A DNA stretch of 21,525 nt from a virus: positions 1 to 21,525 of IMG/VR virus record IMGVR_UViG_3300042310_000730; one strand, given 5' to 3'. The notes under the pieces are model-generated. The model saw nothing but the letters and a program-made list of their open reading frames with translations. It searched no databases and was not told where the DNA came from. The position numbers and the translations under genes were made by a program. Shown here piece after piece: positions 119 through 19,165 of this stretch (within the stretch, counting starts at the first letter, position 1; each line of letters starts with the position of its first letter).

Positions 119-126
119 TTTGACAC
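119..126 (+). promoter_or_regulatory. TTTGACAC motif, copy 1
   Basis: TTTGACAC lies 12 bases before the GTG start of the first gene. GACAC is repeated inverted just downstream (GTGTC at 134-138), giving a possible 5-bp stem over GGCCCCA. It resembles a -35 box, but no -10 box lies at the right distance and the start codon is too close. Confidence 0.45.
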
Positions 127-138
127 GGCCCCAGTGTC

Positions 139-459
139 GTGTCGCCCACCGCTCGCAACGCCCTCGCTCTCCGCTCCGCGCAACTGCGCCAAACCGCGCA
201 CGGCACCACGGTCAAGTTTCGCCAGGCTGAGATCCGCGTCTGCCTCGCTCCCGTCTCCATCGGCCTCGACCTCGAAACCGGCGGCCTCCGCCAAGGCGGT
301 GAGTTCTCGATCCGTTTCCTCGCCGCCGACCTGCAATCGCCACCCCGCCGAGGCGAAGCCGTCACCTTCAGCGCCAAGACCTACTTCCTCTCGCAGATCA
401 GCGAGACCCACGCCCCCGGCGAATACCTCGCCACCATGTCCCCAGGAGGTGCCGCGTGA
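139..459 (+). CDS. Head-closure / head-tail connector-like protein
   Basis: 106 residues, GTG start, no Shine-Dalgarno. I do not recognise a named family with certainty. The second half (RRGEAVTFSAKTYFLSQISE, then PGEYLATMSP) has the pattern of small beta-barrel head-closure proteins: a proline- and glycine-flanked turn, then an aromatic strand describing a parameter value. Its position supports this, since it directly precedes a tail-completion-like gene and the tail tube genes, as in siphovirus genomes. In frame, a TGA at 121 blocks extension upstream, so GTG 139 is the first usable start; a frame read from 89 is only a compositional shadow. It overlaps the next gene by 4 bases (GTGA), implying coupled translation. 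Role inferred mainly from position. Confidence 0.6.
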   Translation: MSPTARNALALRSAQLRQTAHGTTVKFRQAEIRVCLAPVSIGLDLETGGLRQGGEFSIRFLAADLQSPPRRGEAVTFSAKTYFLSQISETHAPGEYLATMSPGGAA

Positions 460-848
460 ATATCCCCGTCGAGAGCGCCCTCGCCGCGTGGCTCCGCAGC
501 CAGCCCGCCTTTGACGGCATCCCCGTCCACACCGGCCAGAGCGCCGAGACGATCCCAGCCGACTGCTCGGTCCTTTTTGCCGGGTGCGAGAATGTCGAGA
601 TCATCGGCGGCACGCTCTCACGCGCCACGGCCTCCATCGTCCTCGCTACTCCGTCGCACCTAGAGATCGATCAGCACCAGCAGCTCACTTCCGCGCTCCG
701 CGCTGCCCTCCGCAATCTCTCAACCCTCGCCGCGCACTTCGAGGCCGTCGCATTTGCCGGAGCGGTTTTGACCGGCCTCACGGAATCGCAGTCCGATTCG
801 CGCTGGGTTTGCAGCGCCACCCTCGTCCTCGGCATCGCCGAAATTTGA
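456..848 (+). CDS. Tail completion / tail terminator-like protein
   Basis: 130 residues. GTG start overlaps the previous stop, with one of the few strong Shine-Dalgarno sequences here (AGGAGGT at 444-450). The N-terminus (VESALAAWLRSQPAF) fits the amphipathic helix that opens many small tail-completion proteins. It is followed by strands around VEIIGGT and a C-terminal SDSRWVCSATLVLGI strand, typical of the alternating layout of tail terminator proteins that cap the tube at the neck. No catalytic motif. Placed between the connector-like gene and the tail tube candidates, where such proteins normally sit. The stop codon forms part of a TTTGACA motif (844-850). Function is inferred from size, layout and position. 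Confidence 0.6.
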   Translation: MNIPVESALAAWLRSQPAFDGIPVHTGQSAETIPADCSVLFAGCENVEIIGGTLSRATASIVLATPSHLEIDQHQQLTSALRAALRNLSTLAAHFEAVAFAGAVLTGLTESQSDSRWVCSATLVLGIAEI

Positions 849-850
849 CA
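844..850 (+). promoter_or_regulatory. TTTGACA motif, copy 2
   Basis: TTTGACAG begins in the last codon of the preceding gene, its TGA being that gene's stop, and lies 28 bases before the ATG of the first tail-tube candidate. TTTGA (844-848) is matched by TCAAA at 860-864, so a small stem is possible. No -10 box visible. Confidence 0.4.
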
Positions 851-878
851 GCCCCACCCTCAAAGAAATCCACCACCT

Positions 879-1190
879 ATGCCAGCAACCTACACCTTCG
901 GAATCACAGGCGGGAACGCAGGATCGATGATCGTTAATTCGGTCACGATCTCCGACACCTCCGCAAAACAAGAACTTCGTGGCGCGGACGGCGAATACGC
1001 CGCTGTCGGCTACAACAAATTTAAGCGCGAGGTCTCCATCTCCGGCGTCGGCGATGCAGGCTCTCTCGCTGTAGGCGGTGCCCTCGGCAGCATGCCCGGC
1101 GTCTCTGGATCCTATACGATCGACCAAATCTCCACCTCCCGATCCATCGACGGATTCGCGGAATTCCAAATCACAGCAACCCAAGACTAA
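879..1190 (+). CDS. Tail tube-like protein, paralogue A
   Basis: 103 residues, start ATG 879, no Shine-Dalgarno. Small, beta-rich and glycine/serine-rich, without hydrophobic or catalytic segments. It shares a common layout with the next gene: FGI near the N-terminus, a K-x-E segment followed by a DGE turn, a Y-N-K-F-K/Y-G-K-K strand, an I-S/N-G-x-G turn, and a GFA-E/S-x-I-x-x-TQ end. Tail tube monomers of siphoviruses are beta-sandwich proteins of roughly this sort, though many are longer. Just 5 bases separate it from the paralogue. It could be the tube protein itself or a minor tube or tail-tip homologue. Confidence 0.55.
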   Translation: MPATYTFGITGGNAGSMIVNSVTISDTSAKQELRGADGEYAAVGYNKFKREVSISGVGDAGSLAVGGALGSMPGVSGSYTIDQISTSRSIDGFAEFQITATQD

Positions 1191-1195
1191 TTTTT

Positions 1196-1558
1196 ATGCC
1201 CGCACAATTCTACGCCGCCAGCGGAATCACTGCTGATTTCGGAATCCAAGACGAGTCTGCTCTCAATATTTTGATCCAGTCCTACAGCTACGATGTCACA
1301 TCGGATAAAGCCGAGATTTTTAACACCGATGGCGAACTCGAGCACTCACACCGCTACGGGAAAAAAGCCACGATCGCCATCAACGGCATCGGCACCGCCG
1401 TCCCTGATGTCGGCGACAAGATCAGCTCGCTTGTAAATACCGGCGCAGGCGCTCTCACTGGCACGATCCTCGTAGACAGCGTGACCCAAAACCTCACCTC
1501 CGAAGGCTTCGCCTCCGTGGATATTTCGATGACGCAATACGACGCCGTTTTGTCCTAG
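1196..1558 (+). CDS. Tail tube-like protein, paralogue B (major tail protein candidate)
   Basis: 120 residues, starts MPAQFYAASGITADFGIQ. Similar in layout to the preceding gene, including DGELEHSHRYGKKATIAING and a C-terminal GFASVDISMTQ. A strong intrinsic terminator follows directly (1578-1609), as expected behind a highly expressed structural gene. I therefore favour this copy as the abundant tube subunit, but cannot exclude the reverse. No Shine-Dalgarno is visible, because the upstream spacer is only AATTTTT-like sequence after the previous stop. No Ig-like C-terminal domain is present. Confidence 0.6.
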   Translation: MPAQFYAASGITADFGIQDESALNILIQSYSYDVTSDKAEIFNTDGELEHSHRYGKKATIAINGIGTAVPDVGDKISSLVNTGAGALTGTILVDSVTQNLTSEGFASVDISMTQYDAVLS

Positions 1559-1577
1559 CCCACCACGCCCGCCGACA

Positions 1578-1609
1578 GGCTCCCCGGCACAATAGGGAGC
1601 CGATTTTTT
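1578..1609 (+). terminator. Intrinsic terminator after the tail tube genes
   Basis: A perfect 7-bp stem GGCTCCC (1578-1584) / GGGAGCC (1595-1601) with a 10-base loop, followed by GA and six T residues (1604-1609). It lies between the tail tube candidates and the chaperone operon. It probably lowers downstream transcription relative to the tube genes. Confidence 0.82.
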
Positions 1610-1623
1610 ACGAGACAATAGCC

Positions 1624-2013
1624 ATGGAAAAATACACCTACACACAGAACATCAAAGCCGCTGCGGCCCTCACCACGCTCGGCTTCAAGCACAAAGAATC
1701 CTCGCCATGCGTGCGAGTCCACCGCGAAGACGGCAAGGAGACATCCTCCTTCTGGTTTGAAGAGAACGGCCCGAACGGCCTCCGCGCCTCGAAAGTCATT
1801 TTTTGGATGACCAAAGGCCACGCCGAACTCGAAGAGTCCGACCCCGAGCATCCGGTGAATTACATCCGCGCCGGATTCGTGAACCGCGAGACCTGGATCG
1901 ATGTCCACAAAAGCACCCCTCGCGTCCTCGAGCTGAAGCGCAACGGAAAAATCCTCTACCTCTCCGAGAACGCCGACGAAGAAACCCGACGCAAATTCTC
2001 CAAACTTTTCTAG
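1624..2013 (+). CDS. Hypothetical tail-module protein
   Basis: 129 residues, ATG in the context agccATGG, no Shine-Dalgarno. Not recognised. It begins with a short helix (NIKAAAALTTLGF), has a central basic/aromatic stretch with SSFWFEE and VIFWMTKGHAELEE, and ends with a charged helix (EETRRKFSKLF). One cysteine, no membrane segment. Its position between the tail tube and the tail assembly chaperone, and the compact mixed composition, suggest a tail assembly or minor tail role. It could equally be a small regulator carried in the operon. It is separated from the chaperone by 12 A-rich bases. Confidence 0.7.
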   Translation: MEKYTYTQNIKAAAALTTLGFKHKESSPCVRVHREDGKETSSFWFEENGPNGLRASKVIFWMTKGHAELEESDPEHPVNYIRAGFVNRETWIDVHKSTPRVLELKRNGKILYLSENADEETRRKFSKLF

Positions 2014-2025
2014 AAACAAAAAACC

Positions 2026-2439
2026 ATGAAAAAACAAACCCAACCCACCACCACCGACACCGACCTCCTCACCGACGACGAAGTCCTGCGCGAGCAAGCC
2101 ATGACCGGCGGCCCGCAAAAGCTCTCCCGCTGGGAACTCCGCCCCACCGCCGCGCTTGAGATTAGCTGGATGCAGCGCAACAAAATCCTCACCACCGACA
2201 TGGACATCATGTGGCGCGCCTCCGGCTTCGGCTTCATCCACGGCGCACCCAAAGCCAGCGTGCGCGCCGTCGTGAACGACTTCTCCCGATTCGCCGCTGC
2301 CGTCGATGACTGGATGGAAAAACAATCTCCTTCTGCCCAAGAGATCGCCGACCTGCAAAGCCTCTGCCTCGAGCGGACGAACGAATATTTTGCCAGCTAC
2401 AGCAGTCAGCGCGGCGCCAAGGATTCGTCGGGAAACTAA
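2026..2439 (+). CDS. Tail assembly chaperone, short (unshifted) form
   Basis: 137 residues, start ATG 2026 in an A-rich context. After a polar Thr-rich N-terminus comes a helical protein: EVLREQAM, LRPTAALEISWMQRNK, VVNDFSRFAAAVDDWMEK and a C-terminal helix LQSLCLERTNEYFASY. This all-helical make-up and the place just upstream of the tape measure gene match the gpG-type chaperones that coat the tape measure before tube polymerisation. The last codons TCG GGA AAC TAA contain a canonical -1 slippery heptamer. A second open frame continues without its own start, the same arrangement as lambda G/GT. The short form ends with residues S-S-G-N. Confidence 0.8.
   Translation: MKKQTQPTTTDTDLLTDDEVLREQAMTGGPQKLSRWELRPTAALEISWMQRNKILTTDMDIMWRASGFGFIHGAPKASVRAVVNDFSRFAAAVDDWMEKQSPSAQEIADLQSLCLERTNEYFASYSSQRGAKDSSGN
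2430..2436 (+). other. Programmed -1 ribosomal frameshift site GGGAAAC
   Basis: The heptamer G GGA AAC fits X-XXY-YYZ exactly in the frame of the upstream gene and is followed immediately by that gene's TAA stop (2437-2439). Slipping back one base puts ribosomes into the open frame CTA AAC AGC CCC GGC TGG, which continues to 2660. GC-rich DNA follows and could form a stimulatory structure, though I did not fold it. Confidence 0.85.
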
Positions 2440-2660
2440 ACAGCCCCGGCTGGCTCGCGAGCTATGTCTACCGCATCGCCCGAATCACCGGCTGGGGCTA
2501 CAGAGAGATTTTGGAAGACCTCCCGTTCGCGGCGGGCCTTCAAATCCTCCACGCCGACGACTTCGCGCACGGCCGCAAACGAGTCTGGGGCCGCAACAAC
2601 CGCGCCACCGATTTTGACTCCCTCGCAGCCATAGAAGCCGCTTTCGAGAACCTGACCTGA
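2436..2660 (+). CDS. Tail assembly chaperone, -1 frameshift extension (GT-like)
   Basis: Read in the -1 frame from CTA 2436 to TGA 2658-2660, giving 74 residues (LNSPGWLASYVYRIARITGW, then YREILEDLPFAAGLQILHAD, ending AAIEAAFENLT). There is no suitable start codon at its head, so it should be made only as a C-terminal extension of the 137-residue protein, giving about 211 residues. The W-x-x-S-Y-V/Y-R-I-A-x-x-T-G-W-x-Y opening followed by a leucine-rich helix fits the second domain of tail chaperones, which binds tube subunits. Stop 2660 is followed at 2662 by the next ATG. A gene finder that requires a start codon would miss this segment. Confidence 0.82.
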   Translation, partial: LNSPGWLASYVYRIARITGWGYREILEDLPFAAGLQILHADDFAHGRKRVWGRNNRATDFDSLAAIEAAFENLT

Positions 2661-2661
2661 G

Positions 2662-3477
2662 ATGCCCAAAATCAAATTAGAAAACCTCAAGTTTGAGCAA
2701 ATCATGAAGGACTACGCCGAGATCCGTGAGACCACGATCCCCGATGCCGTCCACATGAATGCTCGGCTTCTGTGTGTCGAATTTGCCCGCCGCACTCAGC
2801 CATTTGGTAAAGACGACAAAGTAGGCAAAGCAGCCATCGCCCGCGACTTGCTTGGCGGTAAAAAACGATACGGCATCTTTTCTACGCTCACGGCTTTCGT
2901 AGCCTCAAATTACGAAAGATATAAGACAGGAAATATCCGGCTTTTTGTAAAAAAAGACGGCACCGTCTATGGCACCGACACCGCGCACTTTCTTGATGGC
3001 GCTACCGCTGCGACCTTACGCCAAATCCACAAGGGAGCTTTTCAAAACGGCAGAATGTCTAGCGCAGGCAGTGGCACGCGAAACATAGGGCGCTGGAAGT
3101 TTGTGGATAAATACTTTGTCCCAGACACCACGCTTTCGGACTATGTGAAATCCCAACAAGCCAAATCCGGTTTGGCCAAATCCGGCTGGGCGGCTTGCGC
3201 CAAGCAGCTCAAAAAAGTCGGCTCTGGATCAATGACTCGAGATATTCCCGGATGGGTCACGCGGCATCTTGGAGACTACAATTTCGGGACAGTCGAAGAC
3301 CGCACGGGCAACATCTTTTCTCCCACCGTCGTTCTGACGAACACCTGCCGATATGCCGACAAGGTTCTCCGCGAAACCGAAAAGCTCCAAGGCCTCTCGA
3401 TCGTCGCTGGCAAAATGAAAAAGCAAATGGAGCGCATTCTTAAACACCGCCAAACCAAACTCCAGGAGGCCGCGTAA
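2662..3477 (+). CDS. Hypothetical phage protein between chaperone and tape measure
   Basis: 271 residues, ATG one base after the chaperone extension stop. Not recognised. The opening helices (EQIMKDYAEIRETTIPDAVH, ARLLCVEFARRTQPFG) faintly resemble the start of HK97 gp10-like neck proteins, where a long helix precedes a Pro-Phe-Gly turn. The rest is basic and mixed alpha/beta, with a conserved-looking GTRNIGRWKFVDKYF stretch and a C-terminal Lys/Arg-rich helix. A 15-bp tandem repeat at 3160-3189 encodes A-K-S-G-L/W twice. The middle (about 2860-2960) is less GC-rich than its neighbours. Siphoviruses rarely put a gene here, so it may be a tail assembly accessory or a cargo gene. Confidence 0.7.
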   Translation: MPKIKLENLKFEQIMKDYAEIRETTIPDAVHMNARLLCVEFARRTQPFGKDDKVGKAAIARDLLGGKKRYGIFSTLTAFVASNYERYKTGNIRLFVKKDGTVYGTDTAHFLDGATAATLRQIHKGAFQNGRMSSAGSGTRNIGRWKFVDKYFVPDTTLSDYVKSQQAKSGLAKSGWAACAKQLKKVGSGSMTRDIPGWVTRHLGDYNFGTVEDRTGNIFSPTVVLTNTCRYADKVLRETEKLQGLSIVAGKMKKQMERILKHRQTKLQEAA

Positions 3478-3480
3478 GCC

Positions 3481-6964: not shown

Positions 6965-6968
6965 CACA

Positions 6969-7061: not shown

Positions 7062-7068
7062 CTCTGCC

Positions 7069-7765: not shown

Positions 7766-7767
7766 CC

Positions 7768-7775
7768 TTTGACAC
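7768..7775 (+). promoter_or_regulatory. TTTGACAC motif, copy 3
   Basis: TTTGACAC 18 bases before the ATG of the first large fibre gene, three bases after the stop of the Cys-rich gene. It is followed by the C-rich CAGCCCAACCC, as at other copies. No -10 box. Confidence 0.45.
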
Positions 7776-7793: not shown

Positions 7794-9422
7794 ATGCGCA
7801 TCTACATCGACATCGACACGCGGCGGATTCTCACCACTGCCACCCGCCCTGCCACCCGTCTGGAATTTAAGCGGAGGGACAACGACGCTTTCGAGGTGCA
7901 ATTCCTGCGCGCCGGGGCCGTCCAGTCGCTGCCCGTCGGCACGATCGCCAGGGTGGGCGTGAAGGCCACGGAGGATTTCGCCGGGGAGTTTCTTGCCACC
8001 GACACGCTCTCAGTCCTTGGCACAGGCGCGGAAACCGTTTACACCGGATCGTTTAACCTCAACACCACGGCACTCGAGGCGCTATTCCCCGAAGAGCCAG
8101 CCAGCATCACCGCGATGCTCGAGGTTCAGTGGGTGAGCGGCACCTCCGTCGGCTCCTCGCTGACGCTCCCGATCACGATCTTCAACGATGTCATTCGCGG
8201 CGACGAAGGCGCACCCGCCGATCTGCCCCTTTTCTACACCTCGAGCACACCCAATTTCCTCGCCACCCAGGCCGAAGCCGAAGCCGGGTCTGACAATACA
8301 AAGTGGATGTCACCCCTGCGCGTCGCGCAAGCCATAGAAGAGCTTGGCGGCGGCGGAGGCGTCTCGTCATGGAATGACCTGACCGACAAGCCCTCCACAT
8401 TCCCGCCAGCGACCCACACCCACGCCATTGCCGACACGACCGGCCTTCAGACCGCCCTAGATGGCAAAGCCGCCACCTCGCACACGCACCCGCTCTCAGC
8501 CCTCACTCAATCCAGCGCGACGAGCGGCCAAGTCGCCACATGGTCCGGCACCGCGTGGGTGCCGCAGACGCCAAGCGGCGGCGGCGTCACCAGCTACAAC
8601 GACCTAGACGATATTCCCAGCACTTTCCCGCCAGAGGCCCACACGCACGCCATCGGCGATATTGACTACCTGCAAGACGCACTTGACGGCAAAGCGGAGA
8701 CCAGCCACACGCACGCCATCGCCGACACTACTGGCCTCCAGACCGCCTTGAACGGCAAAGCGGCAACTAGCCACACCCACGCCGCCTCCGACATCACCAG
8801 CGGCACATTAGCCAACGCCCGCACTACGGCAACGAGCGCCAATACGGCCAGCGCCATTGTTGCTCGGGATGCCAGCGGGAACTTCTCGGCAGGCACCATC
8901 ACGGCCAACCTCACCGGCACGGCCAGCGGCAACGCCCCAGCAACAGGCATCGCCCAATCTGCCGTGACCAATCTCACGACCGACTTGGCAGGGAAAGCCG
9001 CATCCTCGCACACGCACGCCGCCACCGACATCACCAGCGGCACGCTCGCCATCGCCCGAATCCCGACAGGCACGACGAGCACCACGGTGGCTTTAGGAAA
9101 CGACTCTCGCTTTTCAGACTCACGCACTCCGACAAGCCACACGCACGGGAACATTACCAACGCCGGATCAATCGGCACGACTGCGACTCTGCCGATCATC
9201 ACCGGAACCAGTGGGGTGCTACAAGCGGGCTCCTTCGGAACGACGGCAGGAACATTTGCCCAAGGCAACCACACGCACACTTTTGGCACGACCGCTGGAA
9301 CCTTTTGCCAAGGCAACGACTCACGGCTTTTGACTATTACGGGCGGCATCACCGCCATCGCCGTCGTCGCCACCATGCCTGTGACCCCAGTCGCCACGAC
9401 TCTTTACATAGTCACAGAATGA
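7794..9422 (+). CDS. Tail fibre shaft protein with T-H-T-H repeats (fibre 1)
   Basis: 542 residues. Residues 1-185 form a beta-rich attachment domain (MRIYIDIDTRR..., LEFKRRDNDAFEVQFLRAGA, TMEV-like strand AMLEVQW, then QAEAEAGSDNTKWMSPLRVA). Residues 190-500 are the repetitive shaft with H-x-H motifs near 208, 230, 283, 305, 328, 406, 449 and 493, usually T-H-T-H followed by A-I-A-D-T-T-G-L-Q-T-A-L. In other phage fibres H-x-H motifs of three chains coordinate a metal in a trimer axis, and a trimer is likely here. It ends ATMPVTPVATTLYIVTE, the same junction that precedes the tip in the 600-residue homologue. The next gene overlaps by 4 bases and probably supplies its tip. Confidence 0.88.
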   Translation: MRIYIDIDTRRILTTATRPATRLEFKRRDNDAFEVQFLRAGAVQSLPVGTIARVGVKATEDFAGEFLATDTLSVLGTGAETVYTGSFNLNTTALEALFPEEPASITAMLEVQWVSGTSVGSSLTLPITIFNDVIRGDEGAPADLPLFYTSSTPNFLATQAEAEAGSDNTKWMSPLRVAQAIEELGGGGGVSSWNDLTDKPSTFPPATHTHAIADTTGLQTALDGKAATSHTHPLSALTQSSATSGQVATWSGTAWVPQTPSGGGVTSYNDLDDIPSTFPPEAHTHAIGDIDYLQDALDGKAETSHTHAIADTTGLQTALNGKAATSHTHAASDITSGTLANARTTATSANTASAIVARDASGNFSAGTITANLTGTASGNAPATGIAQSAVTNLTTDLAGKAASSHTHAATDITSGTLAIARIPTGTTSTTVALGNDSRFSDSRTPTSHTHGNITNAGSIGTTATLPIITGTSGVLQAGSFGTTAGTFAQGNHTHTFGTTAGTFCQGNDSRLLTITGGITAIAVVATMPVTPVATTLYIVTE

Positions 9423-10567: not shown

Positions 10568-10575
10568 TTTGACAC
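10568..10575 (+). promoter_or_regulatory. TTTGACAC motif, copy 4
   Basis: TTTGACAC 19 bases before the ATG of the second large fibre gene, immediately before the start-codon hairpin. Same spacing and same downstream CCC as copy 3, which precedes the paralogous fibre. Confidence 0.45.
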
Positions 10576-10576
10576 C

Positions 10577-10597
10577 CATGCCGCAAGCAGCGGCATG
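10577..10597 (+). promoter_or_regulatory. Hairpin containing the fibre 2 start codon
   Basis: CATGCCGC (10577-10584) and GCGGCATG (10590-10597) form a perfect 8-bp stem over AAGCA. The start codon 10595-10597 lies wholly in the right arm. The left arm also has an ATG (10578), opening a 6-codon frame, M-P-Q-A-A-A, whose TGA (10596-10598) overlaps the fibre start. No Shine-Dalgarno sequence is seen. This could limit initiation or couple it to leader translation. Confidence 0.6.
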
Positions 10598-12397
10598 AAA
10601 CTTTTCCTCGATTCAAAAAACCGGCGGTTTGTGAAGTCCGCCGCGAGCAATGTCGCGCTCCAGACGCTCGTCCTCAAACGCCGCGACCAGGTGCCGCTCG
10701 AGGTCATCTTTGTCGAAAACGGCGTGGCCGTCGATCCCGTGGCAGGCACACAGACCACCGTCGCGCTCAAGACCTCTTTCTCTGACGCCAACTTTCTCGC
10801 TCTGGCGGCCGCCGGCCAAACCATCCTTGACCTACACACCGTGCCGGTCGAGGACGCCTTCTCCTCGTCCCCCGCCAGCATCTCCGCCTTCCTCGAGGTT
10901 AAGTGGACCGCTCCCGCTCAAGCCCTCCGCACCGCCACCCTCCAGGTCGAAGTGCAGAACTCCGTCATCATCGGCACCGAAGGCACGCCAGCCGCGATCC
11001 CCGACGGCAAAGCCACGCAATCCGAAGCCGAAGCCGGTCTCTCGAACGAAAAGTGGATGACGCCGCTCCGAACGGCGCAAGCAATCACCGCTCTCGCAGA
11101 TGCCACATTCTACGGCACCACCGCGCCTGATCCGGCACAATTCACTCGATGGGTCCACACCGACCTCGGGCGGCTCTTCACATGGTTCGAAGGCGCATGG
11201 GTAGAATTCACGCACTCCACCGCCGCCGGTATGGGGTCGACAGCCTGGGCCGAAATTACCGGCAAACCCCTCACCTTTGCTCCATCCACCCACAGCCACG
11301 CAATCGCCGACACGACCGGCCTTCAAACCGCGCTCGATAGCAAGGCAGCGACCACGCACGCGCACGCCATCAGTGACACCACCGGCCTACAGGCTGCGCT
11401 CGATGGCAAGCAACCCTCTGGGAATTATTCGTTAAACGGCCACACGCACACCACCGCGAATGTCACCGGTCTCGACGACGCCCTCGCCGCCAAAGTCTCC
11501 GGCACCGGCGTGGCCTCGCTGGAAGTTGTCACCGCTTTGCCTGCCACGCTCGTCCCCACCACTTTCTACATCGTCGTCCCCAGCGGAGCCACGACCGCAT
11601 CGGCCGTGCAGCTCGGCAGCGTCTCGCTTTTCACCGGAGGAGGAGGGGGAGCCGGTGGCGGAGGCGGTGGTGGCGGTGGGGGGTTCACGCCAGCATCGAT
11701 CTCTGGGCTGCAACTCTGGCTCGACGCCTCCGATACAACCACGCTTTTTGATGCCTCCTCGGGCGGGAGTCAGGTCACCACAGACGGGGCCACCGTCGCC
11801 CGGTGGCAGGATAAATCCGGCGCTTCCTACCATGCGCTCCAAGGCGTCGCAAACGCTCGCCCGCTTTTAAAAACTGCCATTCAAAACTCAAAGCCCGCCC
11901 TGCGATTCGATGGCCTCAACGACTGCCTCCGGATTCCAACGATCCCGCTTAATACAAGCATCACGATTTTCGTCGTGGGAAATTTCATAAACGCCAAGCC
12001 GTTTTTGATCGAGCATTCCGCGAACTCGGAAAGCAATTCCGGGTTTTATCTTTACGGAAATTATTTCTCCTCCTGGCAATTTCGAAGGGATGCCGCCTCC
12101 CACATAGGCACAATCTCGCAGAGCCTTTCCACCGGAGCGATGGCGCTTTACAGCTTACGATACGACACTGTCGCCAGCGTAGCAAAAAACGGATCGCTCC
12201 TAATCAATACCGGGCTCACCGGCTCCACCGTGGCGAATGCTTCGGTCATTACGGCGCTCAACATTTGCTCTCGCAACCAAACCGGAGCCTTTTCGCAAGG
12301 CGACCTTTGTGAGGTCGTGATTTACAACTCCGCGATCACCGATGCCGAGCGCGCCCAAGTCGATGAGTATCTAAACAACAAGTGGGGAGTCTTTTGA
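10595..12397 (+). CDS. Tail fibre with fused LamG-like tip (fibre 2)
   Basis: 600 residues. Residues 1-165 are homologous to the start of the 542-residue fibre: LKRRDQVPLEVIFVENG, ASISAFLEVKW, SEAEAGLSNEKWMTPLRTAQ. A shorter shaft has H-x-H motifs near 233, 255 and 283. VVTALPATLVPTTFYIV (about 311-327) matches the end of fibre 1. There follows a glycine run (347-363, encoded by GGC/GGT/GGA/GGG repeats near 11636-11684) that acts as a hinge. Residues 370-600 form a concanavalin-like LamG domain: ISGLQLWLDASD, WQDKSG, PALRFDGLND, ITIFVVGNF, GDLCEVVIYN, ERAQVDEYLNNKWG. LamG-type domains usually bind or cleave sugars; no catalytic residues are evident. Part of the tip DNA (about 11930-12260) is less GC-rich. 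Confidence 0.88.
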   Translation: MKLFLDSKNRRFVKSAASNVALQTLVLKRRDQVPLEVIFVENGVAVDPVAGTQTTVALKTSFSDANFLALAAAGQTILDLHTVPVEDAFSSSPASISAFLEVKWTAPAQALRTATLQVEVQNSVIIGTEGTPAAIPDGKATQSEAEAGLSNEKWMTPLRTAQAITALADATFYGTTAPDPAQFTRWVHTDLGRLFTWFEGAWVEFTHSTAAGMGSTAWAEITGKPLTFAPSTHSHAIADTTGLQTALDSKAATTHAHAISDTTGLQAALDGKQPSGNYSLNGHTHTTANVTGLDDALAAKVSGTGVASLEVVTALPATLVPTTFYIVVPSGATTASAVQLGSVSLFTGGGGGAGGGGGGGGGGFTPASISGLQLWLDASDTTTLFDASSGGSQVTTDGATVARWQDKSGASYHALQGVANARPLLKTAIQNSKPALRFDGLNDCLRIPTIPLNTSITIFVVGNFINAKPFLIEHSANSESNSGFYLYGNYFSSWQFRRDAASHIGTISQSLSTGAMALYSLRYDTVASVAKNGSLLINTGLTGSTVANASVITALNICSRNQTGAFSQGDLCEVVIYNSAITDAERAQVDEYLNNKWGVF

Positions 12398-12657: not shown

Positions 12658-13838
12658 TCATCTTCCCACAAAACCCCACGCTGAATCAGGAATACGAAGC
12701 GCCCGACGGCCGCCTGTGGCGCTTCAATGGCTTCGCGTGGCTCGGCTTCTCCCCTCCTCTCACAGCCGACAAGATCGTTGATTTCACGGAAGCCGTCGTC
12801 GCCGCCGCCCCGCCGACAACTAACGCCTCGCTCCTCACCACCGGCACGCTGCCAGATGCCCGCCTCGCCGCCACCATCGCCCGCAGTGCCGACCTGACCA
12901 CAGAGCAAAATGCACGCATCGCCGGAGATGCCGCGCTCTCGACGCGCATCGATTTCCTCGCCAGCAACCTCGACCCCGCAGCCCTCGATTCCATCGCCGA
13001 AGCAGCCGCCAGCATCGGGAGCCTGCAAACCCAGATAGACGGCAAAGCCACCGCCGCCCAAGGAGCCAAGGCCGACACCGCCCTCCAGCCTGAGCCTGTC
13101 ACCTATCGCGGAGCCTACAACAACGGGCTCGATTACACTTACAACGATGTCGTCACTTACACTGACGGCCTCCTCTACATTCGCGTCAGCAACCCGAACA
13201 ACCCCGGTTATCCCCCCGGTCACTTTTCCTGGGCGCTCTTCCGCCCTGAGATTGGTTCGCCTGCTTATGACCTCTGGGTTTCCGCCGAGTTCGCCAGCAA
13301 AGCCGACACGATCCACGCGCACATGGCCGCCGACATCGCCGACTTCGCCTCGGCAGTCGTCGCCACCGCGCCAAGCCTCGACATCACCACCACGGTCCGC
13401 ATCGGCGACGGCGCCAGCGTCACATTTCCGATTGACGGCCTAGTCAGCAGCGATCCCGAGCATGTCTTCGTCGCCCTCAACGGCGTCACGCAGACCCCCG
13501 GCACCGACTACCTCGTCAGCGAAGCCACCGGCACGATCACCTTCGACTCCGCGCCCGCCGACGGAATGCAAATCTCCTGCACCGCTCTTGGACTCCGCAC
13601 CGTCCAGCGCCCGATCGACCCGACCCTCTACCTCTACGCCTTCGACCAATCCGCCAACGGCCTCACCACCTACAGCGGCCGACTCCTCAACGCCGACCGC
13701 CCCGCCGCGCCAGCACTCCCCGAGACCGCCACCACCTGGACCGTCAAGCGCAGCACCCTCAACGCCGCCGGCCAAATCCTCGCCACCGCCTCCGCCACCG
13801 GATCGTGGGCTAACCGCACATCGCTCTCCTACACATGA
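12654..13838 (+). CDS. Multidomain tail fibre protein (CBM-like)
   Basis: 394 residues, ATGA overlap. Residues 1-32 (FPQNPTLNQEYEAPDGRLWR, FNGFAWLGF) match the short attachment module that starts many phage fibres. Residues 75-145 are helical (RSADLTTEQNARIAGDAALS). Residues 148-200 resemble a CBM5/12-type module: YRGAYNNGLDYTYNDVVTY then LYIRVSNPNNPGYPPG. Residues 248-312 form the domain DGASVTFPI ... VFVALNGVTQTPGTDYLVS ... ITFDSAPADGMQISC, a common phage fibre module. The last 68 residues (LYLYAFDQSANGLTTYSGRL to GSWANRTSLSYT) are shared with the 125-residue protein at 15099. Probably a sugar-binding fibre. Confidence 0.8.
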   Translation: MIIFPQNPTLNQEYEAPDGRLWRFNGFAWLGFSPPLTADKIVDFTEAVVAAAPPTTNASLLTTGTLPDARLAATIARSADLTTEQNARIAGDAALSTRIDFLASNLDPAALDSIAEAAASIGSLQTQIDGKATAAQGAKADTALQPEPVTYRGAYNNGLDYTYNDVVTYTDGLLYIRVSNPNNPGYPPGHFSWALFRPEIGSPAYDLWVSAEFASKADTIHAHMAADIADFASAVVATAPSLDITTTVRIGDGASVTFPIDGLVSSDPEHVFVALNGVTQTPGTDYLVSEATGTITFDSAPADGMQISCTALGLRTVQRPIDPTLYLYAFDQSANGLTTYSGRLLNADRPAAPALPETATTWTVKRSTLNAAGQILATASATGSWANRTSLSYT

Positions 13839-14062
13839 CGACAATCACCGAGAGCAACATCACGCAGACGCTCGATCTCTCCGGCTTCGACCTCACGCTC
13901 CCCGCCGTCATCGTCGAATACCCGAGCCGCTCGAGCTTTCCGAGCATCGGGAAACCGGACCGCCTCTACATGGCCCTTGACGAGGGCATGCCCTACCGAT
14001 GGAGCACCACCGCGAGCGCCTACAGGTCGTTAATCGAAACCATCGACGGCGGCAATTTTTGA
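13835..14062 (+). CDS. Small fibre-associated protein ending IDGGNF
   Basis: 75 residues, ATGA overlap with the preceding fibre. The middle, SSFPSIGKPDRLYMALDEGM then PYRWSTTASAYRSLI, matches the F-P-x-x-G-K-x-x-x-L-Y-x-A-x-D-x-x-x-x-Y-R-W motif seen in short phage fibre modules. It ends ETIDGGNF, close to the STIDGGTY end of the next gene. This suggests a shared recognition tail or relationship by duplication. Its final Phe and TGA form the next TTTGACAC motif. A structural fibre accessory is likely; an alternative is that it is a detached N-terminal attachment module. Confidence 0.65.
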   Translation: MTTITESNITQTLDLSGFDLTLPAVIVEYPSRSSFPSIGKPDRLYMALDEGMPYRWSTTASAYRSLIETIDGGNF

Positions 14063-14065
14063 CAC
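14058..14065 (+). promoter_or_regulatory. TTTGACAC motif, copy 5
   Basis: TTTGACAC overlaps the stop of the preceding gene (TGA 14060-14062) and lies 40 bases before the ATG of the coiled-coil fibre. The spacer is strikingly A/C-only rich (CACCCACCCACGAACACCAA and so on), with almost no G. That would leave an unstructured 5' leader. Confidence 0.45.
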
Positions 14066-14105
14066 TCACCCACCCACGAACACCAACACCTAACCCATCA
14101 CCACT

Positions 14106-15017
14106 ATGCCACAAGTCATCAAACTAAAACGCGGTTCTGGAATTCCCGTTTCCTTGCAGAACGGGGAAGCCGGTTTCGACACCTTAAACAAGGCCCTCTA
14201 CATCGGCACAGCCGAGGGGGTCTACGACCTCGCGGGCGTCAATTACGCCAAGAAAACCTTCGTCAACGACGCGGTAGAAGCCGAAGCCGACCTGCGCAGC
14301 GCAGCGGATTCGACCCTCACCAGCAACCTAAATGCGGAAATCTCCCGCGCTCAAGGTGCCGAAAGCGATCTCGCTGACGACATCGCCGCCGAGACATCCG
14401 CCCGCCAGTCCGCGATCAGCAGCGCCGTTTCGACATTGGAAGCAGCCGACACCGCTTTGGACGGCAAGATCACCGTCGAGAAAGGCCGCATCGATGCGAT
14501 CCTCAGCGCCGCCTCGGCCGACAAAGACAGCTTCGCGGAAATCGTCAGCTTGATCAATTCGGTCGATCTGACCAACGACAACGCCCTGGCAGCCGCCATC
14601 CTCTCTATCAACGACGACATCGCCGCTGAAGAGACCGCACGCATCGCTGGCGACTCCGGTCTTCAGACCTCGATCAATGGCGTCTCGAGCGACCTCAGCG
14701 CGTTGACCACACGAGTCACCGCAGCGGAAGCCGACATCGTTTCGGAAGAGTCCGCCCGCATCGCCGCAGTCTCCGCCGAAGCCGCAGCCCGCGCATCGGA
14801 TGTGTCCGGCCTCGAGTCCGACATCGCCGGAGTCCAGACCAATCTGGATGCCGAAAGCTCGACTCGCGCGACAGCCGACACCTCGTTGTCCAACCGCATC
14901 ACCACCCTCGAAAACGCCAGCGCGGACAGCCGCCTGGATGCCGTCGAGGCCGATGTCGCCGACCACGAGACCCGCATCAGCGCTCTCGAGTCCACGATCG
15001 ACGGCGGAACCTACTAA
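14106..15017 (+). CDS. Coiled-coil tail fibre
   Basis: 303 residues, ATG 14106. Residues 1-45 (IKLKRGSGIPVSLQNGEAGF then LNKALYIGTAEGVYDLAGV) match the attachment motif K-R-G ... G-E-x-x-x-x-T-x-x-x-x-L-Y-I-G-T common at fibre N-termini. From residue about 55 to 295 it is an Ala/Ser/Asp/Glu/Ile-rich heptad coiled coil with repeated units (AEISRAQGAESDLADDIAAE, ETARIAGDSGLQTSINGVSS, EESARIAAVSAEAAARASD). It ends STIDGGTY, matching the preceding protein. No tip domain is fused, so it may carry another fibre protein or act as a spacer. A stem-loop follows its stop. Confidence 0.82.
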   Translation: MPQVIKLKRGSGIPVSLQNGEAGFDTLNKALYIGTAEGVYDLAGVNYAKKTFVNDAVEAEADLRSAADSTLTSNLNAEISRAQGAESDLADDIAAETSARQSAISSAVSTLEAADTALDGKITVEKGRIDAILSAASADKDSFAEIVSLINSVDLTNDNALAAAILSINDDIAAEETARIAGDSGLQTSINGVSSDLSALTTRVTAAEADIVSEESARIAAVSAEAAARASDVSGLESDIAGVQTNLDAESSTRATADTSLSNRITTLENASADSRLDAVEADVADHETRISALESTIDGGTY

Positions 15018-15029
15018 CCAGCCCACCAA

Positions 15030-15069
15030 CCCCGGCGGGGCGCTCCATAGCGCTCCGCCACGCGGGGGG
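15030..15069. repeat. GC-rich stem-loop in a fibre intergenic gap
   Basis: GGCGGGGCGCT (15034-15044) and AGCGCTCCGCC (15049-15059) pair over 11 positions with one G-T wobble around CCAT. Flanking CCCC (15030-15033) and GGGGGG (15064-15069) can extend it after a bulge. No T run follows, so it is not a standard terminator. It may be a REP-like element or mRNA stabiliser. Confidence 0.6.
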
Positions 15070-15098
15070 ATCAATCCGCGAAATCAAAAACCCGCCAC

Positions 15099-15476: not shown

Positions 15477-15479
15477 ACC

Positions 15480-16313
15480 ATGATCGCAACCAGCTCCGGC
15501 AAACCCATCATCGCCACCGACCGCCTCCTCGGCCGCTCCACCTCCGGCACCGGCCCCGCCGAAGAAATCTCCCTCGGCACCGGCCTCTCGCTCACCGGCG
15601 GCACGCTGAACGCCTCCGCGCAAACCACCATCGGCGCCAGCGCCGCCGATGTCCTTTCCATCGCCGCTGGCGAGATCACCGCAGACGACCCCGGAGCAGA
15701 CCGTCTACTCTTCTGGGACGACAGCGAAAGCAAGCTCACCCACCTCACCCTCGGCACCGCGCTCTCCATCTCTGGCACTACGATAAACGCAGACACCGGG
15801 ACGAATAATTACACCACGAACAACTACACTTTCGCCAGCAAAACGCTCGCCCGATTCACCCCCCGCGAGAACCAGCCCCCCGTCACCGCATTCGCCACCC
15901 TCGACACGCGAAACTCGATAGCCGTGCTCGATTTCGACGCCACCGTGGACGAATCCGCCATTTTCTCCGGCGTAATCCCCGAAAAAGCCAACCTCGCCTC
16001 CGGCCTGCAAATCCGCCTAGCATGGATGGCCACCTCCGCCACCTCGGGCAGCTGCCGGTGGGGCGTGCAAATCGAGCGCTGCACTACCGCCCTCGATACC
16101 GATTCCTTCGATACCGCCACCGAGGCCACCGGAGCCGCCAACGGCACCAGCGGAGTCGCCACCCTCACATCCATCACCGTCACCGCCATCGACGGCCTCA
16201 CCGAAGGCGACACATTCCGCATCAAAGTCTTCCGCAACGCGGACGATGCCACGAACGACACCATGACAGGCGATGCCGAGTTGATCGCTGTCGAAATCAG
16301 GAGCGCGGCTTAA
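15480..16313 (+). CDS. Tail fibre protein with C-terminal beta-sandwich
   Basis: 277 residues, ATG three bases after the previous stop. Residues 10-50 carry a fibre shaft motif (IIATDRLLGRSTSGTGPAEE, ISLGTGLSLTGGTLNAS). Residues 50-120 are further beta repeats (ADRLLFWDDSESKLTHLTLG, ALSISGTTINAD). From about residue 125 to the end a compact beta-sandwich domain appears: PPVTAFATLDTRNSIAVLDF, GLQIRLAWMATSATSG, LTEGDTFRIKVFRNADD, LIAVEIR. This domain type is common at the ends of phage fibres and structural proteins. Two cysteines (in SCRWGVQIERC) are eight residues apart. Probably a receptor-binding or decoration fibre; the partner is unknown. Confidence 0.75.
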   Translation: MIATSSGKPIIATDRLLGRSTSGTGPAEEISLGTGLSLTGGTLNASAQTTIGASAADVLSIAAGEITADDPGADRLLFWDDSESKLTHLTLGTALSISGTTINADTGTNNYTTNNYTFASKTLARFTPRENQPPVTAFATLDTRNSIAVLDFDATVDESAIFSGVIPEKANLASGLQIRLAWMATSATSGSCRWGVQIERCTTALDTDSFDTATEATGAANGTSGVATLTSITVTAIDGLTEGDTFRIKVFRNADDATNDTMTGDAELIAVEIRSAA

Positions 16314-16928
16314 ATGTCTTACAATATTGCATCAACAAACTATTTAAGCGCAACAAACCCGGTAAGCGCAGCTCCATTCACTATTGCTTGTTGGGCTTGG
16401 GTTAATAACATATCAAGCACTAAAGCATTAGTGTCTCTAAACCAAAACTCAGGACCAAATCGTTTTGTTATGTCTGTGGCCAATGCCATCTTGAGGTTTG
16501 GTGATAGTGGATCAGGTGGCGCAATAGCAACAGGAACTGTAGCTGCAAACACATGGTTTCACGCTTGCGCTGTAGAAGCATCTACAACCAGCCGATTTTG
16601 TTATAGAGACGGAGCAAACGCAGGACAAAACACAACTTTACGCAACCCAACATCAATTAATGCTCTTAATATAGGAACCACCATCAATACAGGCACGATA
16701 ACCCAACGACTAGATGGACGCATCGCCGAAGTCGGCATCTGGAACGCCGCCCTCACCGCCGACGAAGTCGCCTCCCTCGCCAAAGGCATGAGTTGCGACA
16801 AGGTGCGCCCGCAGAGCCTCGTTTTCTACGCGCCCCTCGTCCGCAACCTCATCGACCAAAAAGGCGGCCTCGCCATCACAAACAACAACGGCGCAACCGT
16901 CGCCAACCATCCAAGAGTCTATGCCTAA
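16314..16928 (+). CDS. LamG-like (concanavalin fold) receptor-binding protein
   Basis: 204 residues, ATG directly after the previous TAA. Clear LamG/laminin-G layout: NYLSATNPVSAAPFTIACWA, then NNISSTKALVSL, NTWFHACAVEASTTSRFCY, the strand INALNIGTTINTG, and the conserved RLDGRIAEVGIWNAALTADE ending. This fold binds carbohydrates in many phage and bacterial surface proteins. The first 370 bases (16314-16690) are much AT-richer than the rest, and the change is abrupt near the RLDGRIAEVGIWN codons. The same fold, but different sequence, tips fibre 2. No signal peptide, as expected for a virion protein. Confidence 0.82.
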   Translation: MSYNIASTNYLSATNPVSAAPFTIACWAWVNNISSTKALVSLNQNSGPNRFVMSVANAILRFGDSGSGGAIATGTVAANTWFHACAVEASTTSRFCYRDGANAGQNTTLRNPTSINALNIGTTINTGTITQRLDGRIAEVGIWNAALTADEVASLAKGMSCDKVRPQSLVFYAPLVRNLIDQKGGLAITNNNGATVANHPRVYA

Positions 16929-17352
16929 TCTGTATTACAACATCCACGACCCCGCCGACCTCCGCGACCTCCCGCAAAGCCTCCTCGACGAGTGGGCCGC
17001 GAACAACAACCCCAAGCGCGCCGAGTGGCTACCCGCCCCCGCCAAGCCAGCCGAAAACGCCGTCTGGAACGCAGCCGAGTGGCTCATCCCCACGCCACCC
17101 GCCATCACCGCCGAAGATCACCTCGCCGCCGAAGGCTACAGCCCCCTCCGCCTCCTCACCTGCCTCGATTTCGAAGGCAAACTCCGCGCCACCGGCAAAG
17201 CCTCCCCCAAGCTCGCCGCCGTGCGCGTGTGGCTCGACACCCTCACCCTCGCCGCAGCCGCAAACCCCGACGACGCCCGCCCCGACTGGCCCGCCGCCCC
17301 CCACCCCTTCGATCAAGTCCTCGCCGAAGCCCTCACCGCCCTCAACTCCTAA
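16921..17352 (+). CDS. Hypothetical fibre-region protein
   Basis: 143 residues; ATG overlaps the LamG gene end by 8 bases. Strongly Ala/Pro/Leu-rich: an N-terminal segment NLYYNIHDPADLRDLPQSLL, a proline-rich linker (AEWLPAPAKPAENAVW), the helix-turn PPAITAEDHLAAEGYSPLRL, LTCLDFEGKLRATGKASP and a helical C-terminus. No recognised domain. Tail fibre assembly (Tfa-like) proteins have a similar size and often sit just after a receptor-binding gene, and they tend to carry helical and Pro-rich parts; this is a positional guess. The GC content is among the highest in the window. Confidence 0.65.
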   Translation: MPNLYYNIHDPADLRDLPQSLLDEWAANNNPKRAEWLPAPAKPAENAVWNAAEWLIPTPPAITAEDHLAAEGYSPLRLLTCLDFEGKLRATGKASPKLAAVRVWLDTLTLAAAANPDDARPDWPAAPHPFDQVLAEALTALNS

Positions 17353-17364
17353 CCGCACAACACC

Positions 17365-18882
17365 ATGGCCAACGAACTGAACATCGCACTCTCAACCGGG
17401 CTCACCGTCACCGCCCAAGCCTACACCGCCGGAGCCGCCAGTGGCTCCGCCATCAGTCTCTCCGAAGTCGGCAGCTCCGGCTTCTACAGCGGCAACATGA
17501 CCGGCAGCGCAGGCACCTACCAACTGGTATTCCTCTCGGGAGGAGCCACCGTCGGCACCGGACAGATCAACTGGAGCGGCACCGCCGAAATCCCCTTCTC
17601 GACTCTGACCACCGCCGACATCCCCACCGCCGCGATCTCAGCCATCCAGGCGAAAACCGACAACCTCCCCAGCGACCCCGCCGACCAAAGCCTCGTCGAG
17701 TCCGCCATCTCCGCCATCTCCGCCCTCTCGATCCCGACCGTGGTCCAGATCCGAACAGAGCTTGATTCCAACTCGACCAAGCTCGCCAATCTCGATGCCA
17801 GCGTCTCGAGCCGTTCAACCCTCACGACCGGCGACCTCCCGAGCGTGCCGAGCGCGGCCTCGGTAGCCTCAGCCGTGCGCACCGAGCTAACCGAAATCTC
17901 GAACCTCGACGCCTCCATCTCGAGCCGTCTCGCAGATGCCGACTACACCGCGCCGACCAGCGCCCCGACAGCCGCCGCTGTGGCCTCCGCCGTGCGCACG
18001 GAATTGACCGAGATCAGTAATCTGGATGCTTCGGTGTCGAGCCGACTTGCCTCGGCGTCTTACACAGCGCCAGCCAACTCAGACATCTCCGCGATTAAGA
18101 GCAAAACCGACAACCTCCCGGCTTCGCCCGCAGCGGTCTCGGATATCCCGACCACCGCGCAGATCAGCGCAGCCGTGGAAGGCTCGCTCCTCGATGAGAA
18201 CGACGGCCAAGCCGTCCTCAACGCCATCGTCGGAGCCATCGGCAACACCAACCTCAGCGAAGTTTCACTGGTCGCCGCAGTCCGCGCCGACCTCGAGCGC
18301 ACCGGAGGCAAGATCGACAGCATCCCGACATCCTCGGCGCCATCAGCCTCAACAGTGGCCGGAGCTGTGCGAACTGAACTCGCAACAGAACTCGGGCGTC
18401 TGGATGCCTCGGTGTCTTCGAGACTCTCGCCATCCGGCACGCTTGCCACGGTGACAAACCTCACGAACGCGCCGGCATCAGTCACTCCCGCCGACATCTG
18501 GGACTACAATGCCCGCACGCTCACCAGCGCCAGCGGACCGACAGCGGTCGAGATTCGCCAGGAGATCGACGCCAATTCCACCAAACTGGATGTCGCCGTC
18601 GGAACCCGCCTCGCCGGTTCGGCCTACACCGCGCCAGCCAACAGCGACATCACCGCGATAAAAGCGAAGACCGATGCACTGCCAAGCGATCCTGCAGACC
18701 AAAGCCTCCTCGAGGCCGCCATCGCCGGGGTCGCAGCGCCTTCAGCGGCCACCGTGGCATCAGCCGTGCGTTCCGAGTTAAGCACCGAACTCACGAAAGT
18801 TTCGGCCTTGAACACCGAGCGCCTCGCCAATGTGGCGACAACCGCGATTGTGGGGAATCTTTTAGCCCAGGCTAACAGCTAA
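17365..18882 (+). CDS. Long repetitive tail fibre protein
   Basis: 505 residues, start in the context caccATGG. Residues 1-75 form a beta-rich domain (MANELNIALSTGLTVTAQAY ... QINWSGTAEIPFS). The remainder is built of repeats: VASAVRTEL-type motifs near 167, 206, 331 and 464; LDASVSSRL near 143, 181, 220 and 347; and longer duplications, IQAKTDNLPSDPADQSL at 94 and IKAKTDALPSDPADQSL at 432. A DIWDYNARTLTS element lies near 377. The repeats are helical and Ser/Ala-rich, so a trimeric shaft is likely. It is the last structural gene before lysis. Confidence 0.8.
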   Translation: MANELNIALSTGLTVTAQAYTAGAASGSAISLSEVGSSGFYSGNMTGSAGTYQLVFLSGGATVGTGQINWSGTAEIPFSTLTTADIPTAAISAIQAKTDNLPSDPADQSLVESAISAISALSIPTVVQIRTELDSNSTKLANLDASVSSRSTLTTGDLPSVPSAASVASAVRTELTEISNLDASISSRLADADYTAPTSAPTAAAVASAVRTELTEISNLDASVSSRLASASYTAPANSDISAIKSKTDNLPASPAAVSDIPTTAQISAAVEGSLLDENDGQAVLNAIVGAIGNTNLSEVSLVAAVRADLERTGGKIDSIPTSSAPSASTVAGAVRTELATELGRLDASVSSRLSPSGTLATVTNLTNAPASVTPADIWDYNARTLTSASGPTAVEIRQEIDANSTKLDVAVGTRLAGSAYTAPANSDITAIKAKTDALPSDPADQSLLEAAIAGVAAPSAATVASAVRSELSTELTKVSALNTERLANVATTAIVGNLLAQANS

Positions 18883-19151
18883 TGAGCACAGAAGTTGTCC
18901 GAAACAGACCAGGTGTAAAAATGAGCGTCGGCGAGTTCATCGCCGCGCTCGCCCTGGTGGCAACCGTCTTCTCCGCCTCGCAAGCCTGGTGGATTCTTCC
19001 CGAAAAAGTTTCCCGCGTAGAAGTGGAAAACGAAAAGCAGGAGCAACGCCTTCAAAAGATCGAATCCACCGCCTCCGAGCGCGCCGAGACATTGGCCCGC
19101 ATTGACGAGAGAACCAAACGCATCGAGCAAATCCTCGCCAACCGCCAGTGA
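18882..19151 (+). CDS. Membrane-anchored coiled-coil protein (i-spanin or holin-associated)
   Basis: 89 residues, ATG sharing one base with the previous stop; an internal ATG at residue 14 is an alternative. Residues 18-38 (FIAALALVATVFSASQAWWI) form one hydrophobic membrane segment, followed by a highly charged helix (VEVENEKQEQRLQKIESTAS and on to the end) with heptad spacing. One N-terminal anchor plus a long external coiled coil is the topology of Rz-type inner-membrane spanins. Being first in a lysis cassette with a lipoprotein gene two genes on supports this. XhlA/DUF-like haemolysin proteins of Gram-positive phages put the coiled coil first, so they fit less well. Confidence 0.62.
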   Translation: MSTEVVRNRPGVKMSVGEFIAALALVATVFSASQAWWILPEKVSRVEVENEKQEQRLQKIESTASERAETLARIDERTKRIEQILANRQ

Positions 19152-19157
19152 GCGGCC

Positions 19158-19165
19158 TTTGACAC
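19158..19165 (+). promoter_or_regulatory. TTTGACAC motif, copy 6
   Basis: TTTGACAC between the coiled-coil membrane protein and the holin-like gene, 13 bases before its ATG, followed by CCCGCC. No -10 box. This copy marks the lysis genes. Confidence 0.45.

Follow-up and report, generated by a model that had tools for sequence, protein, structure and literature searches.

A TTTGACA element before late phage genes as a probable single-element promoter with its start 20–21 nucleotides downstream

The window analysed here is a complete virus record of 21,525 bases (IMG/VR record IMGVR_UViG_3300042310_000730), and it raises the question of what the short word TTTGACA does so close to the start codons of its late genes. 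The word occurs six times, at 119, 844, 7768, 10568, 14058 and 19158, always on the + strand and never on the − strand, and the 8-mers beginning there end 12, 27, 18, 19, 40 and 13 nucleotides 5′ of the start codons at 139, 879, 7794, 10595, 14106 and 19179; on rechecking, the coordinates of the motif given in a preliminary description of the sequence proved exact. That description offered a late-regulator site, an RNA-processing or protein-binding site, or a non-standard initiation signal. Our answer, to which we give a probability of about 0.73, is that TTTGACA (core TTGACA) is a single-element, phage-specific late promoter whose transcripts would start 20–21 nucleotides downstream and would often be leaderless. 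Of the readings offered, an initiation element for late genes fits best, with RNA processing as its main rival.

It is proposed that each copy of the motif opens its own late transcript, some of them directly behind a terminator. Counted from the first T, transcription would start 20–21 nucleotides downstream, on a purine with, as a rule, a pyrimidine before it; the element would then occupy roughly −20 to −14. For most of the copies before portal, gpW-like, connector, small-terminase and holin genes the start site would be the start codon itself, giving leaderless messages; in the capsid, tube and fibre genes it would precede a leader of about 1–46 nucleotides. One copy, inside the capsid-protease gene, would open a transcript for what is presumed to be a nested scaffold protein. 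The element would probably be recognized by a helix-turn-helix (HTH) protein of the phage, whose gene lies upstream of the packaging genes; this protein would direct the host RNA polymerase to it. The element with its strand, spacing, purine and spread, the terminator-like hairpins and the place of the candidate gene are observed, whereas initiation at this site, leaderless translation, the nature of the scaffold and the part played by the activator are inferred. The gene names connector, gpW-like, tube and holin-like are ours or those of the preliminary description, and are based on gene order.

Taken by itself the window gives a modest excess of a word chosen post hoc (six copies against 1.67 expected on both strands, a number reached by one in 100 dinucleotide shuffles), but this doubt is removed because relatives show the same enrichment. 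Relatives were collected as 48 loci through the tape-measure protein and, through a portal alignment, as the best 80 of 301 viral loci (one of them already in the set) and four contigs of metagenome-assembled genomes (MAGs); genes were called with our own script, not Prodigal. The 132-sequence set contains six contigs twice (L053, L083, L094, L095, L103 and L115 repeat L014, L047, L001, L005, L046 and L036). Without these repeats there are 126 sequences (1.66 Mb), the sense copies of TTTGACA fall from 671 to 635, and the connector hairpins discussed below from 78/80 to 72/74. Counts of genes and copies refer to the 126 sequences unless otherwise stated, and counts of spacing classes and leaders to the 132, with distinct sequences counted where this is said.

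When no word is fixed in advance, the strongest enrichment in the 60 nucleotides before called starts of the window and the 48 loci is that of TTTGACA among 7-mers and of TTGACA among 6-mers, and 160 of 199 copies of TTTGACA fall in the 7.4% of sequence that lies there. The 635 sense copies stand against 21 antisense; 492 lie within 70 nucleotides before a called start, 90 inside the capsid-protease gene and 53 elsewhere, the median for 420 permuted heptamers being 31 sense copies (132 sequences). Copies away from gene boundaries are thus at background, so that the equal frequency inside coding regions named in the preliminary description as a refutation was not found; nor do homologous phages lack the motif, for they carry it at the same gene boundaries. 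It precedes every major capsid (75/75), connector (76/76), coiled-coil fibre (14/14) and type-2 protease (10/10) gene, and most portal (84/92), gpW-like (82/89) and small-terminase (9/12) genes. Nine records of 33–44 kb hold 99 sense and five antisense copies, 9–14 sense copies per record, and 76 of the 99 have a called start within 75 nucleotides, at terminase, head, tail, fibre and lysis-side genes. The motif is real, widespread and coherent, and works like a phage single-element late promoter, in that one short conserved element stands before late genes; we assign it to no named promoter family.

The spacing between motif and start codon carries much of the argument. If d is the position of the start codon counted from the first T of the motif, 223 distinct sequences divide into class A (start at 20 or 21; 80 sequences), class C (22–29; 38) and class B (30–66; 103), with two called below 20. 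All 84 motif-bearing portal genes have d of 20–21, as do 79 of the 82 gpW-like genes; the four motif-bearing holin-like genes all have d of 21; and all 76 connector genes have d of 20–23, 72 of them exactly 20. The start codon stands at the predicted start site in 269 of 485 motif-bearing gene starts. When RTG triplets (R, A or G) are counted without gene calls, 265 lie at offset 20 and 69 at offset 21, and a lesser peak of 53 at offset 15 is attributed to connector leaders such as CAGTGTCGTG, in which the gene is called at 20. Class A start codons are preceded by C in 89% of 91 cases, against 31% of 486 non-motif starts, and comprise 66 GTG and 25 ATG, against 54 and 421 at non-motif starts. 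Starts called less than 20 nucleotides from the motif number ten in the 132 sequences, of five sequence types. Two types with d of 15 have, in our reading, a better start at 20 or beyond, as does a further site, with d of 17, in G005; in two other types, tube sites that bear the usual leader, the start was called within the motif itself.

Where the start codon lies further downstream, position 20 or 21 is still marked. G is found there in 101 of 103 distinct class B leaders, compared with 127 of 1236 bases at positions 7–18 upstream of it and 50 of 2908 downstream. The triplet GAA occupies the place in 84 of the 103 (capsid 46/48, tube 27/40, coiled-coil fibre 10/11 and one other), and a pyrimidine–purine step is found there in 97/103 class B leaders, 34/38 of class C and 34/40 copies nested in the protease gene, the nested copies having a purine in all 40. 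That start codons do not come before position 20 or 21, and that a purine is fixed there, can both be understood if there is one fixed 5′ end; where the start codon lies at that end, the message would be leaderless.

An independent test came from more distant prophages. A portal profile was run against 384 genomes of the same class; 58 matched, and 30 loci were examined, of which three belong to the window's lineage and one (L418) is close, while two pairs among the other 26 share more than 10% of their 24-mers. In these 26, TTGACA occurs 65 times sense and six times antisense, and the spaced form TTGACA-N13/14-RTG 40 times sense and never antisense, in 22 of the loci. With the close locus added (27 loci) the figures are 66/6 and 41/0, in 23 of 27, and the next of 180 permuted hexamers reaches five. 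A second group of 23 viral loci, with a GC content of 46–55%, has the same pattern with TTGACA. Five other phages with related portals, including Akkermansia phage Moulinsart, have no excess (together one copy sense and one antisense). A scan of IMG/VR for exact forms found TTTGACACGCC-N6-GGCGTG in at least 120 stretches and TTTGACA-N13-CGAAACCCA in 41; among the matches listed were 137 new loci, of which 123 encode relatives of the proteins of these phages and 14 do not.

In the window, the element and the starts predicted from it are placed as follows (all on the + strand; positions within the motif counted from its first T).

41–80, + strand: intrinsic-terminator-like hairpin with T-run, read directly from the sequence, ending 38 nucleotides upstream of copy 1
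119–126, + strand: motif copy 1, TTTGACAC, preceding the connector gene 139–459
139, + strand: predicted transcript start of copy 1, position 20, the G of the GTG start codon with C before it; putatively leaderless
844–851, + strand: motif copy 2, TTTGACAG, preceding the tube gene 879–1190; the TGA of the motif is the stop codon of the preceding gene
865, + strand: predicted transcript start of copy 2, a G at position 21 preceded by A (one of the six class B exceptions to the pyrimidine–purine rule)
7768–7775, + strand: motif copy 3, preceding the first large fibre gene 7794–9422
7788, + strand: predicted transcript start of copy 3, a G at position 20 preceded by A (one of the four class C exceptions)
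10568–10575, + strand: motif copy 4, preceding the second large fibre gene 10595–12397
10589, + strand: predicted transcript start of copy 4, an A at position 21, with a 6-nucleotide leader
14058–14065, + strand: motif copy 5, preceding the coiled-coil fibre gene 14106–15017; the TGA of the motif is the stop codon of 13835–14062
14078, + strand: predicted transcript start of copy 5, a G at position 20 in a CA-rich leader
19158–19165, + strand: motif copy 6, preceding the small holin-like gene 19179–19352
19179, + strand: predicted transcript start of copy 6, the A of the ATG start codon; putatively leaderless

The resemblance of TTGACA to a −35 box had been set aside in the preliminary description because the start codon is too close. 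This is right for a sigma-70 promoter: there is, as had also been noted, no −10 hexamer 16–18 bp downstream, a place taken in class A by the first codons, and a start about 35 nucleotides downstream is ruled out for class A by the start codons at 20/21, the purine standing at 20/21 elsewhere. The data nevertheless fit a promoter that starts 20–21 nucleotides downstream.

Among the alternatives, RNA processing has to be considered first, although we regard it as unlikely. An endoribonuclease would read UUUGACA in a long late transcript and cut 13–14 nucleotides downstream, before the purine; this would yield the same fixed 5′ end, and needs no melting of GC-rich DNA. Three observations speak against it, and the first two favour the promoter. 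First, a terminator-like hairpin lies upstream of 72 of 74 connector copies (the window's own hairpin is too close to the record end to be included), whereas the same test found one before 44 of 1781 starts that lack the motif, and before 21 of the 422 among these that have a gap of at least 60 nucleotides. In 65 of the 74 it ends 1–7 nucleotides before the motif, where it would end the parent transcript of a cleavage scheme unless it were leaky; the promoter of a transcript starting behind it is left about 20–30 nucleotides, which is where the motif lies. Secondly, the motif lies inside the reading frame of 89 of 92 genes of the ClpP-like protease family, and a cut there would destroy the protease message. 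Thirdly, the motif is also carried by the small-terminase gene, with which the late region opens.

The nested copies are of interest in themselves. The first ATG or GTG from 13 nucleotides onwards lies 16–30 nucleotides away in 95 of 96 of them (132 sequences), at distances that are arithmetically in the protease frame, and motif and in-frame start together probably mark a nested scaffold gene, the layout being that of lambda C/Nu3. One example is L014:5038–5060, which, like homologous sites, has the motif and an in-frame ATG within the ClpP-like protease gene.

A translation signal, in which the motif replaces the Shine–Dalgarno sequence or a hairpin between motif and start codon controls initiation, is considerably less probable still. 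The fixed spacing of class A would suit it, and a Shine–Dalgarno word precedes none of the 485 motif genes, against 162 of 1798 other genes; such words are also scarce in the host MAGs, where a somewhat different list of words gave 193 of 1470 called genes. The start codons of capsid, tube and fibre genes, however, lie at variable distances of up to 66 nucleotides, yet the purine stays at 20/21. The folding data are divided: the native folding energy is below all 500 half-swaps for fibre-2 and below all 200 base shuffles for the class with d of 20, but when the halves are exchanged between sequences, 31 of 500 trials for d of 20 and 260 of 500 for d of 21 give folds that are no worse, so that specific pairing is weak or absent. 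As a general mechanism the start-codon hairpin was rejected: pairing of TTTGACAC with GTG and of TTTGACAT with ATG resembled covariation, and after thinning and half-swapping only fibre-2 remained clear.

It is doubtful in the extreme that the copies are stoperator-like sites, that is, asymmetric repressor sites which block elongation in a lysogen, as in cluster A mycobacteriophages. The motif shares with these a short asymmetric form, orientation with transcription and a place near gene borders in presumably temperate phages, and the L5 stoperator consensus, as we take it to be, resembles the reverse complement of the motif. The letters of that consensus do not appear in the available text of PMC6550527 and PMC9283540, in which stoperators are repressor sites across the whole genome, in 20–30 copies per genome, and no fixed start-codon spacing is mentioned. 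The motif does keep to one orientation in the 126 sequences, but in the nine long records the copies with start spacing lie in late genes, with a few copies scattered elsewhere, and a roadblock would not be expected to keep a fixed distance from a start codon or leader purine. An antitermination RNA of the boxA/nut type deserves next to no credence: TTTGACA followed by a hairpin recalls boxA–boxB, but boxA needs a C before TTT, and in 76 thinned sites that base is C in 14% of cases, with A or T making up 77%.

Returning to the promoter, it may be asked whether the host uses the element. Three of the four MAGs with portal relatives are labelled Verrucomicrobia or Chthoniobacter, and the presence of these relatives is our reason for treating the MAGs as hosts; the fourth, with L050, is labelled Burkholderiaceae, which may reflect mis-binning or a second host group. 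A host-wide element was rejected: in 1.67 Mb from parts of three MAGs, 10 of 135 copies of TTTGACA precede host starts against about 3.2 expected, with no peak at 20/21, and TTGACA-N13/14-RTG is not in excess in the three (3, 7 and 1 against permuted medians of 6, 5 and 1). In two host MAGs TTTGACA stands upstream of a ribosomal-protein-L13-like gene (L144:18655, + strand; L157:18356, reverse-strand position); this is probably an ordinary promoter, CATTGT following at about 17 nucleotides in one of them. The hosts do give a small sign of leaderless genes of their own, for TA-N3-T at −14 and −12 of host starts reaches 9 and 6 in G024 (mean 2.28, though a count of 7 is also found at −46 and at −19) and 8 and 8 in G026 (mean 1.37). 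Such peaks are expected of leaderless genes and make leaderless messages plausible in these hosts. The C-rich, G-poor stretch after the motif, remarked on in the preliminary description, is in part a trait of the leaders; CA-rich 7-mers are also at the top before starts in G026.

The candidate activator is a phage protein. In both phage groups an HTH protein of 140–200 amino acids and a partner are encoded upstream of the terminase genes (fam6/fam7 in one, h2/fam7b in the other), for example:

L241, 5660–6612 (G034): a conserved HTH gene with its partner, located ahead of the terminase genes
L267, 8541–9498 (G012): likewise a conserved HTH gene with its partner, ahead of the terminase genes

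To judge from their sequences the two HTH forms are probably homologous, and both profiles match overlapping places on G251:C11, G207:C34, G090:C61 and G026:C20. Profile A2 matches 12 of the 384 genomes, nine of them portal-positive (hypergeometric 4e-6), and profile A3 matches 26, with 20 portal-positive (2e-13), both relative to a base rate of 58/384 and with kinship among the genomes ignored. Among 16 A3–portal pairs no more than 60 kb apart on one contig, the HTH gene is upstream on the same strand in 11 (3.6–24.7 kb), on the other strand in four very similar cases and downstream in one of the window's own lineage; among five A2–portal pairs it is upstream on the same strand in three and downstream in two, again of that lineage. 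Activators of the RinA/ArpU type are likewise small HTH proteins, encoded just before the small terminase, and act at one late promoter; no NCBIfam match to that family was obtained up to an E-value of 10 with five proteins scanned. No Pfam family reaches its cut-off for the HTH gene or its partner, and PDB sequence searches with the candidate gave nothing useful. As a lead, we put the odds that this protein activates the element at about even. Adjoining the terminase genes, L241:9946–11184 encodes a ParB-like domain (below cut-off) and an N4/N6 DNA methylase domain.

Several observations weigh against the promoter and its candidate activator. No conserved second element, −10 or other, is found on either side of the motif, and the stretch that would have to melt is GC-rich (AT 32% at −13 to −4, against 43% overall), which is odd for a bacterial holoenzyme. 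Neither a single-subunit polymerase nor a sigma factor was found among the scanned proteins, which include part of the early genes. The pyrimidine–purine rule is broken in 6/103 class B leaders, 4/38 of class C and 6/40 nested copies, two of these in the window, and some starts below 20 nucleotides remain, L078 (offset 6) having no likelier reading. Many genes of some families do without the motif, which is carried by 63 of 95 tube, 26 of 49 fibre-2 and 4 of 22 holin-like genes and by 10 of 91 protease starts. Of the 99 sense copies in the nine long records, 23 are not followed by a called start within 75 nucleotides; some are nested protease copies and others are scattered, such as one within a helicase gene of G034. 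The spaced form is missing from four of the 26 distant loci. Terminator-like hairpins are absent before the portal (0/88), capsid (0/81) and tube (0/69) copies of the 132 sequences, and seven of the 72 connector hairpins end further off, 43–46 nucleotides before the motif. As to the activator, the hhalign match between the two HTH forms has a probability of 22% (E 0.001), the AlphaFold model is poor (pLDDT 55), and the second half of the protein differs in L068, L072 and L113, although the records of L068 and L072 still have the motif.

Known phage systems offer partial parallels. The late promoters of the jumbo phage AR9 have the form AACA-N6-T(A/G), the last base being the start site, and the accessible part of that paper (PMC5312081) also notes that many phage transcripts lack a leader; leaderlessness alone is therefore not new. 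AR9 resembles the present phages in its one short element and in a pyrimidine–purine start at a fixed distance, which is here a predicted one; the form here is TTGACA-N13/14, and AR9 brings its own multisubunit polymerases and has leaders of 26–491 nucleotides. In phages phiEco32 and 7-11, too, structural genes are preceded by a motif peculiar to the phage, which in phiEco32 reads TAATGTATA and belongs to late promoters recognized by a phage sigma factor, but, as far as the available text of PMC4331800 goes, the motif is another one and a sigma factor is encoded there, none being found here among the scanned proteins. The start-associated sequences (SAS) of cluster K are asymmetric repeats, mostly in one orientation and directly upstream of starts across gene families (PMC3203893). 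Their sequence, however, is GGGATAGGAGCCC, and the portion of that paper at hand mentions no fixed purine in long-leader genes. The SAS consensus differs from the top word before starts here, TTTGACA, though the SAS letters were not searched for as such. The element was not found described among the papers listed, mostly non-subscription ones, on leaderless or late phage promoters or Verrucomicrobia phage motifs.

If the promoter is real, the late genes of a large and mostly uncultured phage group would be run by a promoter type that ordinary finders miss because it has no −10 and a GC-rich start region. Transcript starts could then be predicted to the base for hundreds of genes, start codons would be fixed, many of them as GTG, nested scaffold genes would be pointed to by the element, and leaderless translation could be put to the test in bacteria that seldom use Shine–Dalgarno signals. 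A broader proposal, which we advance tentatively and which may well claim too much, is that Verrucomicrobia prophages share one late regulon across the class. Small HTH proteins of a new family would serve in it as promoter-specificity factor, placing the −35-like word TTGACA at about −20 with no AT-rich −10, and many virion-gene messages would start on the start codon, so that structural genes, the nested scaffold gene among them, would be expressed from leaderless RNAs.

Some minor observations may be added. The gene content of the window is late-phage-like, with tape-measure and fibre matches, an amidase/endolysin and a small protein that matches only a PHROG of unknown function; the terminal open reading frame, 20421–21482, reads like a tyrosine integrase, judged from its translation. 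Record G037 (L243, L244) has two different scaffold/capsid/connector cassettes, at 830–3426 and 37450–39985, which indicates either duplication or mixed assembly. In G034 (L241, L242, L256) the same protein is encoded at both ends of the record, which suggests that the genome, about 42 kb long, is complete and circularly permuted.

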